This document shows positions 8,679 through 56,710 of a stretch of DNA of 64,000 nt, in pieces; the first letter of the stretch is position 1, and each line of letters opens with the position of its first letter. Made by a program: the position numbers and the translations under genes. The DNA is from Paenibacillus sp. 37 (lineage in GTDB: Bacteria > Bacillota > Bacilli > Paenibacillales > Paenibacillaceae). Location of the stretch: NCBI RefSeq assembly GCF_008386395.1, contig NZ_CP043761.1:2418001-2482000 (forward strand). Direction: 5' to 3'. The notes beneath the pieces are model-generated. The model was not told where the DNA came from and did not search any database. It worked only from the letters and a program-made list of their open reading frames with translations.

Positions 8679-10226
8679 ATGAACCGGTTGTGCAAGGTGC
8701 TGATTGTTGACGATGAGTTTCTGGTAAGACAGGGCATAAAGCACCATATGAACTGGGAAGCGGAAGGATTTATCATTGTGGGTGAAGCTTCCAACGGTGA
8801 AGAAGGATTACAGCAGGTGAACCTGTTAAAACCGGATATTGTGATCACCGACATTGTCATGCCTGTCATGGATGGCGAAACGTTTGTCCGTACACTAAAA
8901 GCCAGTAATCCGCAGATTGAAGTTATTGTACTTAGCAGCTTCAGTGAATTCGAGTATGTACGTTCAACGCTTCAGCACGGGGCAGCAGATTATATACTGA
9001 AACCCAAGCTGGATACAAATGAATTATTGCAAGTCCTTCAACGCACAGCGGGTAAAATTCCCGAGCTACAGTTCGAGCCGTCGCACGATGGCTGGAGACT
9101 GGGGCAATTGATGGAGAAGATGTTGTCCGGATTTACACTGGATGAAGATAGCGAAATGCCGATCATTCGAGATACCTTTCCGTATGAATCCTTTCGCTTG
9201 CTGGTGTATAAACCCGTGGGTGCTGGAGGGAATCCGCTGAAGATGGATCAGGAACAGATTGAATCCAAGCTCCGCAGTGATCTGCCTGAAGTAGAATGTG
9301 CAATGGTTCCCGCAGAGGGTACATTACCTGTGATGCTCCTTAATGTCGATCCTGCGAGAGATGAATGGATGCTTGAACGGATCAGACAGTTGGCCAGTGA
9401 AAATGCAGCAGGAGAAGGCAGTCCTGGTTGGGTGCTTAGTGAAAGCTTTACTTCATTTGAACAGATGGGTGTTGTTTACCGGGAACGCCTGATTAAGCTG
9501 ATTGAATATCGTTTCTATTATAAGGATCGACCAATCCTGGTGTATGGTGAACTGCCTCCAATGCATCCCGCAGGTTACCAGTTTAATGTGAATATGTTTT
9601 TGCAGCATGTGAAGCGTAACCGGGTCGAAGCGGCAAGGGAGTATTTACAGGATCATGCAAAAACACTTGGACGGGATTATATTGCCGATGTGTTTGAGAT
9701 CAAATCATTTCTCGGTAACTTGATCTTCAACGTGACCATTACCCTCGCGGATATGGATGTCCAGTCTGCCGGGCTGGAAGAGAGCAAATATACGTATTTT
9801 AAAAATGTGGACGGGGCTTCGAGTCTGGACGAAGTCATGACTGTGCTTGACCAATTCATGACGGAAGTTCAGGAGTGCTCCGTTGGTGCGGGTGGAAAAC
9901 GAAGTGATCCCAACATGAAGATGCTGCTGGATTACATGCATGAGCACTTTGATCAGCCGCTCGGGCTTGCTGAAGTAGCCAAGCACTTTCATTTTAATCC
10001 CTCGTATTTATCCAGTTATTTTTCATCTCACAAAAAAGAAGGATTTAATGAATACTTGAATAAAATCCGGATTGAAAAAGCCGAGGAACTGCTTCGATCC
10101 GATGATGTAACGATTTCTGAGATTAGCAGTATGGTAGGCTATTCCGATCATAGTTACTTTTGCAAGGTGTTCAAAAAATTCACCGGATTATCACCAAGCC
10201 GATACCGGCGCAAATTCTGGGCATAA
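8679..10226 (+). CDS. Response regulator, YesN-like (receiver plus AraC-type HTH)
   Basis: A 515-residue response regulator. Residues 1-125 are the receiver domain with the phospho-acceptor Asp in DIVITDIVMPVMDG and the conserved KPK near residue 109. A long middle region (about 130-400) is typical of YesN-type regulators, and residues about 410-515 form an AraC double helix-turn-helix (FNPSYLSSYF, DHSYFCKVFKKFTG). It is followed after 18 bases by its sensor kinase. By position it should control the xyloglucanase and/or the ABC importer in response to extracellular sugars. Confidence 0.93.
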   Translation: MNRLCKVLIVDDEFLVRQGIKHHMNWEAEGFIIVGEASNGEEGLQQVNLLKPDIVITDIVMPVMDGETFVRTLKASNPQIEVIVLSSFSEFEYVRSTLQHGAADYILKPKLDTNELLQVLQRTAGKIPELQFEPSHDGWRLGQLMEKMLSGFTLDEDSEMPIIRDTFPYESFRLLVYKPVGAGGNPLKMDQEQIESKLRSDLPEVECAMVPAEGTLPVMLLNVDPARDEWMLERIRQLASENAAGEGSPGWVLSESFTSFEQMGVVYRERLIKLIEYRFYYKDRPILVYGELPPMHPAGYQFNVNMFLQHVKRNRVEAAREYLQDHAKTLGRDYIADVFEIKSFLGNLIFNVTITLADMDVQSAGLEESKYTYFKNVDGASSLDEVMTVLDQFMTEVQECSVGAGGKRSDPNMKMLLDYMHEHFDQPLGLAEVAKHFHFNPSYLSSYFSSHKKEGFNEYLNKIRIEKAEELLRSDDVTISEISSMVGYSDHSYFCKVFKKFTGLSPSRYRRKFWA

Positions 10227-54997: not shown

Positions 54998-55017
54998 GAT
55001 ACGAAATGTATCTTTTT
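54998..55017 (+). terminator. Short hairpin after yraN; first GATAC palindrome
   Basis: GATACGAAATGTATC followed by TTTTT works as a small terminator. The same palindrome with one base changed returns at 55220-55234, so it may also be an operator half of a pair. Confidence 0.5.
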
Positions 55018-55105: not shown

Positions 55106-55148
55106 AAAGCCGTAGTTCCTGTTTATACAGGAGCTGCGGCTTTTTTTG
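55106..55148 (+). terminator. Strong terminator ahead of the peptide gene
   Basis: AAAGCCGTAGTTCCTGT pairs with ACAGGAGCTGCGGCTTT around TTAT and is followed by T residues. Confidence 0.85.
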
Positions 55149-55219
55149 ATTTAACTATGAAATCATTAAACAGAGGATAGGGCATTGATAATAAAATCAT
55201 TGTATTTCAGAAATTTATG

Positions 55220-55234
55220 GATACAAAATGTATC
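55220..55234. promoter_or_regulatory. Second GATAC palindrome upstream of the peptide gene
   Basis: GATACAAAATGTATC, a perfect 5-bp palindrome with a 5-base centre, one base different from 54998-55012. It ends 51 bases before the peptide start and is not followed by a T run, so it looks like an operator. Confidence 0.4.
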
Positions 55235-55285
55235 ATTTGTAATAAACTAAGAAAGTTGAAATTTAAAGAGAGGTTGGTGGGATGT

Positions 55286-55447
55286 ATGAAAGAGCTTCAG
55301 AATACTTCGAACAACACAGTAAAACAAGTATGGGAGTGCCCTCGGATGGAAGTGCTGGATATCAGCGAGACCATGAACGGTGGACAGGGGATTTGGCAAT
55401 ATGTTTGGGACGGAGAATTCTGGAAGCTTGAACTTATGGTCAGTTAA
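55286..55447 (+). CDS. Orphan paeninodin-like (lasso-type) RiPP precursor peptide
   Basis: A 53-residue peptide. The segment WECPRMEVLDISETMNGG (16-33) matches the leader of Bacillota lasso precursors such as paeninodin (aromatic, Pro, Leu/Met, EVLD, Thr-Met, Gly), including the Thr two before the cleavage point. Cleavage after TM would leave a 23-residue core, the same length as paeninodin. That core (NGGQGIWQYV, then WDGEFWKLELMVS) has no Asp/Glu at position 8 or 9, the ring acceptor; the first acid is at 12. No cyclase, protease or leader-binding genes lie in the window. ATG 55286 follows GGTGGG. A genuine small gene is likely; lasso formation is doubtful. Confidence 0.65.
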   Translation: MKELQNTSNNTVKQVWECPRMEVLDISETMNGGQGIWQYVWDGEFWKLELMVS

Positions 55448-55507
55448 TTTAAGAGGTTAAAGAGGAATGTTTGATCAATAAAATAAATGGTGAGGTGTAG
55501 TGAGAAG

Positions 55508-56710
55508 ATGCAGACAAGTATCAAATGGATCATTCGACTAAGTACACTATCTTTATGTTTCATTTTGTTTGGAATCATGTATTCCGGAGTTTCTTATGCA
55601 GCGGATCCGTCTAGCCAGGCAAAAATATCAGGTAAAGTTACTGATCTCGAAGGGTTTCCTATCCAAGATGCAACAATCAAGTATTCCCTTAGATATCAAG
55701 GGGAAGAAACTGAAAAAAGCGTAAAGACAGATGGCACTGGAAATTATTCCATACTTGAGTCTGTCCAGGATTATACGGAAATTAGTTTTATAATTGAAGC
55801 AGAGGGCTATGTGACAGACAGGCACCGTAATACCTACTATTTGTCAGAAGGAGAACAGATTCTGGTTAATTTCGAGCTATATGAACCTTCTACGATTGTA
55901 GGGTCTGTAACCGATCAAACAGGCAAACCGATTCCAGATGCCTTGGTCAAAGTAACAGGAGCCTTGGATCGCCCGGTTAAAACAGATCAGCAAGGCCGTT
56001 ATGCCGTTACTGGGCTTGATTTTGACTACAATCCGAACATTGCGATCTGGGTAGATTCTGCGGATTATATGCTTTATGAACAGGATCGATTGAATGTTCA
56101 GGCTGGAAAAACCTTAATCGTAGATGTTGTTTTGACAGAAGCCGCACATGTACGGGGGAAAGTAGTAGATGAGGCGGGTAATCCAGTAAGTGGAGCTAAA
56201 GTGAATGCCGGAGGCTCGGCAACAACAACAACGGATGCTCAAGGAAATTATTTCATAAAGCGCGTGCCAACAGGCACCAGAACAATAACGGGGGAAGCAG
56301 CAGGATACTTAAAATCTACTCAGAACGTTACCTTCGTACAAGGAGATCATAATACGTTTAATATCGTACTTAAGAAAGATGCAGATATTACACCTCCAGT
56401 AACCAAGTACAGATTAGTTCCTATTACAGATACTGTGAACGGGAAAATATACATCAAAGGATTTACATTCAGACTTCAGGCAACGGACGAAGTCAAAGGT
56501 TCGGGTGTAAAAACAACGCAATATCGAATCAATGGGGGAGCATGGGAGACTTATGAAGGACCCGTCAAGTTTTATGCCCCTGATGTCAAGGTGGTAGAGT
56601 ACTACAGTACAGATGTTGCAGGTAACCAGGAGAAGTATAACAAAATGGATTTTGTTAATGGCACATTTGAAGGGAATGGCACGTTTGAAGGGGAGAGTTA
56701 CGACGATTGA
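55508..56710 (+). CDS. Secreted protein with CarboxypepD-regulatory-like and OmpL47-like domains
   Basis: A 400-residue exported protein. Residues 1-31 are a Sec signal peptide (cleavage near VSYAADP). Three carboxypeptidase-regulatory-like Ig domains follow at about 35-120, 125-210 and 215-300 (KISGKVTDLEGFPIQDA, STIVGSVTDQTGKPIPDA, HVRGKVVDEAGNPVSGA). An OmpL47-type module at about 305-385 contains YRINGGAWETYEGPV. All are binding or spacer folds with no enzyme motif. It starts 60 bases after the orphan peptide gene with no terminator between, so co-expression is plausible. Confidence 0.85.
   Translation: MQTSIKWIIRLSTLSLCFILFGIMYSGVSYAADPSSQAKISGKVTDLEGFPIQDATIKYSLRYQGEETEKSVKTDGTGNYSILESVQDYTEISFIIEAEGYVTDRHRNTYYLSEGEQILVNFELYEPSTIVGSVTDQTGKPIPDALVKVTGALDRPVKTDQQGRYAVTGLDFDYNPNIAIWVDSADYMLYEQDRLNVQAGKTLIVDVVLTEAAHVRGKVVDEAGNPVSGAKVNAGGSATTTTDAQGNYFIKRVPTGTRTITGEAAGYLKSTQNVTFVQGDHNTFNIVLKKDADITPPVTKYRLVPITDTVNGKIYIKGFTFRLQATDEVKGSGVKTTQYRINGGAWETYEGPVKFYAPDVKVVEYYSTDVAGNQEKYNKMDFVNGTFEGNGTFEGESYDD

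Follow-up and report, generated by a model that had tools for sequence, protein, structure and literature searches.

Paeninodins (NF033524; PadeA and PbaA) are the described lasso peptides that stand closest to the gene considered here, and their precursors combine a leader of WxxPxLEVL spacing and a threonine at position -2 with a C-terminal serine, the residue that the accessible part of PMC9266682 gives as the site of the paeninodin kinase PadeK. The nearest published idea, as far as the available part of PMC13381572 (2026) extends, is that of the linear polyphosphorylated peptides (LPP), whose leader, YxxPxVLxHQxIxFETxxS, is cleaved by a SipW-like peptidase that their own cluster encodes; the same part of that source describes 9x90 as an RRE crystallised with a WxxP leader and supplies the PbaA leader numbering that is followed below. 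A third described element is the operator of Xre, the PBSX repressor, with the consensus GATACATTTTGTATC in the portion of PMC4243335 at hand.

The peptide gene lies on the plus strand of a 64-kb window, the whole stretch of DNA that was analysed, and belongs to a family that shares with the paeninodins the leader spacing, the Thr at -2, the terminal Ser, a core of 21-25 residues (in all distinct cores but one) and the same type of operator upstream. Unlike paeninodins, the family has no acid at core positions 7-9 in 25 of 29 distinct cores (the other four have one), its core is more conserved than its leader, it is paired with a secreted protein, and it is encoded without a C-A-K-B1-B2-D cluster of its own, adjacency to such a cluster being seen in genome G184 only. 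It resembles LPP in its predicted linearity, HprK-type kinase, discrete RRE and related leader logic, and in its presence in genomes that also make paeninodins, but the leader here, WECPRMEVLDISETM, is of the WxxP type without HQ...FET, and the peptide locus has no SipW-like peptidase cluster. Membership of LPP was rejected on both counts, since the leader motif fails and the locus is without an LPP cluster.

A paeninodin-type leader on a core without a ring acceptor

The features of the locus, in window coordinates, are as follows.

54998..55012, no strand assigned: dyad copy 1, GATACGAAATGTATC, Xre-operator-like (pattern scan)
55106..55143, plus strand: terminator-like stem-loop after yraN, between the two dyads (consensus scan only)
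55220..55234, no strand assigned: dyad copy 2, GATACAAAATGTATC, 66 nt upstream of the peptide start (pattern scan)
55238..55243, plus strand: -10-like hexamer TGTAAT right after dyad copy 2 (sequence; absent from the promoter-scan list)
55268..55273, plus strand: GAGAGG, a possible ribosome binding site (inferred from sequence)
55286..55447, plus strand: 53-residue precursor peptide with paeninodin-type leader, ring-less Trp core and C-terminal Ser (translation, profile match, homologues)
55286..55375, plus strand: leader, residues 1-30 (PbaA numbering)
55376..55444, plus strand: core, NGGQGIWQYVWDGEFWKLELMVS, 23 residues, predicted beta-hairpin (position counting from W16 and T29; AF2)
55508..56710, plus strand: partner protein with CarboxypepD_reg repeats and a signal-like N-terminus, 400 residues from an internal Met (ORF, Pfam)

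Translation of 55286-55447 gives MKELQNTSNNTVKQVWECPRMEVLDISETMNGGQGIWQYVWDGEFWKLELMVS, residues 13-34 of which match the NCBIfam paeninodin model NF033524 at 30.1 bits against a cut-off of 27, bearing out the paeninodin-like leader that a preliminary description of this DNA had read from the sequence. In PbaA numbering K13 stands at -18, W16 at -15, P19 at -12, M21 at -10, E22-V23-L24 at -9 to -7 and T29 at -2, so that the WxxP motif and the Thr at -2 are both present, and the leader positions contacted in PbaA, as given in the accessible part of PMC13381572, are retained. Counting from W16 and T29 also yields the 23-residue core of the preliminary description, with Gln8 and Tyr9 and no Asp or Glu at positions 7-9, that is, with the usual ring acceptor missing, and with Ser53 as its last residue. 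The AF2 model of the peptide is a hairpin with strands at residues 37-41 and 46-50 (mean pLDDT 91 over residues 41-50 and 70 overall; pTM 0.29), for which Foldseek found no PDB match at E <= 0.001.

Translation from the Met at 55286 is favoured because in-frame stops lie upstream of it in the sister clade and at locus L020, and for the same reason a longer start at 55217 (76 residues) is disfavoured; database versions of the peptide run to 95-96 residues. The overlapping frame that begins MYERAS at 55282 is not the conserved one, because it is broken by internal stops at five related loci (L031, L032, L034, L040 and L044), and it was rejected. A double-glycine leader was likewise rejected, GG being absent from P0011, L064 and L066.

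A profile built from a diverse alignment (A2) and searched against 394 family-level genomes returned 49 loci in 47 genomes at 44.9 bits or more, the next matches scoring at most 38.2 bits; the genus accounts for 31 of these loci, and the remaining 18 are spread over 16 genomes from four further genera, where the family core is found at other loci. Five sub-threshold matches were inspected, of which four (L085, L087, L088 and L089) have canonical paeninodin-like cores and the fifth, L086 (33.5 bits), is a weak relative outside the 49; it lies at G309:C3:81000-98000, 8726-8857 (+), directly after a 1624-residue protein with PKD and laminin-G domains. Named database matches to the family come from Paenibacillus and Cohnella, and two of them in Paenibacillus sp. 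TRM 82003, P0038 and P0039 (locus tags 43855 and 43840), are both family members located on contigs of equal length (364250), which suggests a duplicated module. Among 15 diverse members of alignment A2, K13, W16, P19, L24, T29 and W37 are invariant, and the usual core pattern is W-x-[FY]-...-[DEG]-F-[WY]-[KRQ]-[RL]; locus L083, a strong member, has WIPL in place of WxxP. Serine is the last residue of all 29 distinct cores and of 34 of the 36 proteins from the database search, the exceptions being P0019, which is truncated, and P0020, which is apparently frameshifted.

The product is predicted to be linear because there is no acid at core positions 7-9. The lasso cyclase might nonetheless join the N-terminus to a later acid (E14 here, in many members the D or E that precedes F), and the outcome would be an enlarged ring or a lactam without threading. 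The acid before F is indeed retained in many cores, a cyclase gene is present in the resident operon described below, and Asn has been proposed as the first ring residue of metanodin (in the accessible part of PMC12670498). However, the acid sits anywhere from position 12 to position 16 depending on the member, so that the rings would differ in size, core residue 1 is itself variable (N, S, A, D, H, G or E), and G replaces the acid altogether at L080, L081, L082 and L084, all of which leaves a non-canonical macrocycle distinctly improbable.

Selection on the peptide gene distinguishes leader from core. Within the genus the gene occurs in 31 of 75 genomes (E <= 1e-4), and when L033, L039 and L075 are left out, the other 28 loci, with 25 distinct DNA sequences among them, have a dN/dS of 0.53 at residues 2-15, of 0.22 at residues 16-30 and of 0.07 in the core. 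Strong core conservation alone is not unusual, because paeninodin precursors used as a control (20 carrier genomes together with the two precursors of the genome under study; 19 distinct DNA sequences, one 37-residue precursor left out) have core values of 0.08 in the 38-residue class (n = 11) and 0.14 in the 39-residue class (n = 7). The corresponding leader values are 0 and 0.10, and a leader that is freer than its core (0.22 against 0.07) is thus the reverse of the situation in true lasso precursors. NF033524 scores below its cut-off in four other genus members (G033, G034, G037 and G064).

The preliminary description had entertained the idea of a relic, a lasso precursor left behind after loss of its cluster and its ring. 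Lasso genes are absent from the vicinity of the peptide gene at the six related loci inspected, the peptide genes of G032 and G057 have lost their N-terminal part, and the truncated P0019 and apparently frameshifted P0020 would fit the same picture. As a general account, though, the relic is refuted by the core dN/dS of 0.07 over 25 distinct sequences, and the same core recurs at other loci of other genera; we give it almost no credence. The substitution pattern indicates instead that the peptide gene is conserved under strong selection and is no relic in its own genome. The truncated members themselves (L033/L052 in G032 and L039/L056 in G057) are likely decaying copies.

The secreted partner protein

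The genes nearest the peptide gene encode the CarboxypepD_reg protein, the longest ORF of which begins at 55487, and a nitroreductase, with yraN and comM recognised by reading of the ORFs; the earlier placement of the gene in an accessory insertion between yraN and comM proved right in outline when the six related loci were inspected. At nearly all loci the peptide gene has a co-oriented neighbour no more than 85 nt away, some apparent overlaps reflecting long ORF calls, and the product of this neighbour mostly has a hydrophobic, signal-like N-terminal stretch by a simple heuristic. As called, the partners of L046/L074, L066 and L080 have no signal-like start, and L033/L052 has no intact partner.

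Within the genus a homologue of the CarboxypepD_reg partner (E <= 1e-30) is found in 30 of 31 carriers of the peptide gene and in none of 44 non-carriers (Fisher 4e-20, relatedness ignored). The exception is G032, in which the partner is reduced to a remnant beside the N-terminally deleted peptide gene; G057 has a similar deletion in the peptide, yet its partner is intact. The partner is split or interrupted in G037 and G040, and one in-frame stop was flagged in G004, G048 and G052, yet ORFs of 397-398 residues are found there. Outside the genus a comparable neighbour is present at 18 of 18 loci, assigned by Pfam to CarboxypepD_reg at L062, L063 and L066, to Hcp at L064, L065, L067-L070, L081 and L084, to SLH at L082 and to laminin-G at L083; the partners at L076-L079 resemble Hcp by the look of their sequences alone, and at L080 just the final part of a protein resembling the partner at L082 is present. 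The partner proteins that were run against the Hcp-like (PF05638) and CarboxypepD_reg (PF13620) models pass the Pfam cut-offs. Hcp proteins in these Gram-positive relatives have signal-like N-termini and mostly flank the peptide gene on both sides.

The best explanation of this arrangement is that the peptide gene, which encodes a ring-less relative of the paeninodin precursors, and the gene for a secreted, beta-rich surface protein together form a two-gene module. A purely structural version of the partnership would have the hairpin work with the secreted protein as chaperone, strand donor or inhibitor, the leader serving only for export or retention through the lasso transporter and the peptide undergoing no covalent change. 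The tight pairing in the genus, the four Pfam kinds of partner, most of them with signal-like N-termini, and the predicted hairpin are all consistent with such a role, but the terminal Ser of all 29 distinct cores points to the kinase and the retained Thr at -2 points to B2, and we consider an unmodified structural partner unlikely.

A shared dyad and enzymes encoded elsewhere

A second line of evidence ties the module to the paeninodin operons. The dyad GATAC-N5-GTATC occurs exactly, 61-68 nt before the peptide start, at all 29 genus loci at which it was sought within 150 nt of the start; L033 and L039 stand outside these 29, though both have the exact dyad. At 18 other modules, scanned from 400 nt before to 60 nt after the first gene with some starts set by hand to the signal-peptide Met, the dyad is exact in 13 and present in 15 when one mismatch is allowed; this set includes the weak member L086 and leaves out L080, where the contig starts inside the neighbour. 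The module scan took in 421 kb and had 27 exact dyads (0.03 per 460 bp, true sites included), as against none for the reversed control. Twenty paeninodin operons, scanned from 300 nt before to 90 nt after the first gene, have it exactly in 12 and with one mismatch allowed in 16, often doubled at a spacing of 31 nt and in carriers and non-carriers alike; L139 and L144 were omitted (first gene not called; L144 and the counted L085 are one operon). No dyad was found at modules L067, L082 and L083 or at four of the 20 lasso operons scanned, and in G184 it is present at neither the ring-less module nor the adjoining lasso operon.

The 7.6-Mb genome under study has 17 dyad sites, against one for the reversed control, of which three are at the peptide module and the resident paeninodin operon, at least seven lie inside ORFs, and others precede a hexapeptide acyltransferase and an epimerase. 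One of the 17 is at L117 (G000:C1:1495706), where a pair of dyad-like sites with a spacing of 33 nt has a divergent XRE-family gene on one side and, on the other, a 144-residue ORF followed by a CpsB/CapC capsule gene, and this XRE-family gene is a candidate for the regulator of the dyad set. Both arms of the dyads at 54998 and 55220 match GATACATTTTGTATC exactly, and the Xre consensus, as given in the accessible part of PMC4243335, is identical to the dyad before seven of the 20 paeninodin operons; we infer that an Xre-type regulator may act on the peptide module here. At 55238..55243, where this locus reads TGTAAT, the sister clade has TATAAT.

The operator common to the lasso operon, together with a leader retained on a core that can no longer be cyclised, could also be expected of a decoy, an unprocessed peptide that is no RiPP and that titrates B1 or another RRE-like protein and so tunes lasso output. 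The core, however, is the most conserved part of the peptide, and the secreted partner and terminal Ser would be left unexplained, so that a regulatory decoy seems to us an improbable account.

In the window itself there is no B2 gene, as the preliminary description had held, the three places in the genome at which PF13471 exceeds its cut-off all lying outside it. The accompanying label of an orphan precursor holds for the window and fails for the genome, because the search for lasso B and C genes elsewhere that had been recommended turns up a complete paeninodin operon at C1:2.047-2.056 Mb, 0.42 Mb from the peptide gene. Its genes run in the order sulfotransferase, C, A1, A2, kinase, B1, B2, NTP transferase and ABC; its two precursors have D9 and a C-terminal Ser, its kinase is HprK-like, and its cyclase and kinase score below the NCBI curated cut-offs. 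The best PDB match of the resident B1 is 9x90 (PbaB1; E 9.3e-25), and by reading of the alignment nine of the 12 pocket residues named in the accessible part of PMC13381572 are identical. Two further lasso-type loci are present in the same genome: L016 (G000:C1:6678001-6695000), where B2 is accompanied by ORFs resembling B1 and a cyclase and by a putative precursor of 74 residues that is rich in Cys and has a YxxP leader (ORF 9351-9575, minus strand), and L017 (G000:C1:6516001-6533000), with B2, two ABC transporter ORFs and a short Lys/Gly-rich putative precursor (ORF 9412-9540, minus strand).

B2 is matched in 47 of 47 carriers and 249 of 394 genomes overall, and the kinase in 47 of 47 carriers and 250 of 394 overall, though partially or in pieces in G004, G037 and G054. 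This co-occurrence is uninformative inside the genus, because 72 of its 75 genomes have both, but outside the genus B2 is found in 16 of 16 carriers as against 177 of 319 genomes (hypergeometric 5.9e-5, relatedness uncorrected). In G184 the two systems adjoin: C, A, kinase, B1, B2, NTP transferase and ABC genes lie on one strand, and on that same strand genes for an SLH surface protein and then the ring-less peptide start 138 nt past the lasso operon.

The predicted product and what it would mean

The marks for B1, B2 and the kinase (leader, T-2 and terminal Ser) are kept and that for the cyclase is lost, and a linear, leader-cleaved, phosphorylated peptide is therefore to be expected. Since the gene is conserved, lies beside a secreted-protein gene and carries a lasso-type switch, it probably specifies a different linear peptide made with borrowed enzymes. 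The reading we favour, with the balance tilting only modestly towards it, is that the precursor is a substrate of the paeninodin B1, B2 and kinase acting in trans, giving a linear, C-terminally phosphorylated Trp-hairpin peptide that is made together with the surface protein. Relief of an Xre-type repressor would lead to co-expression of the module and the lasso operon; B1 would bind the ring-less leader in trans, the kinase, perhaps with the NTP transferase, would modify the terminal Ser, and B2 would cleave after Met30. The product would stay linear, probably folding as a Trp-rich beta-hairpin, and would act at the cell surface alongside the partner protein. An enzyme acting in trans, one of the options raised in the preliminary description, is thus favoured by the resident operon, by B2 and the kinase in all 47 carriers and by the shared operator, while the modification itself is a prediction.

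Another of those options, a new class of RiPP with a lasso leader, holds in part: the ring-less core family appears new to us, but the machinery predicted for the ring-less peptide is already known. No RiPP precursor paired with Hcp-like or CarboxypepD_reg proteins has, to our knowledge, been reported, and among the papers listed by literature searches, with subscription papers and preprints mostly outside them, there was no description of a lasso precursor that is ring-less, acts in trans or is paired with an Hcp or CarboxypepD protein. Beyond the reach of the preliminary description were the family's wider spread, its secreted partner, the serine at its C-terminus, the operator and, in G184, its position next to a lasso operon.

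A family of ring-less peptides that has kept its recognition and phosphorylation marks, with a common type of operator and, in one genus, a near-obligate partner, offers a testable handle on the role of paeninodins. It suggests that substrates whose genes lie far from a lasso cluster may be served by the machinery of that cluster, and genome mining that demands a cluster or a ring acceptor would overlook such peptides. More tentatively, and with doubt outweighing conviction, lasso enzymes may have a second job, in which stand-alone ring-less precursors would become linear Trp-hairpin peptides phosphorylated or glycosylated at the C-terminus, each dedicated to a co-encoded surface protein, to which it would be bound or even attached, within a surface or extracellular-matrix regulon. 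If that were true, the role of paeninodins themselves would likewise be one at the cell surface and not one in killing.
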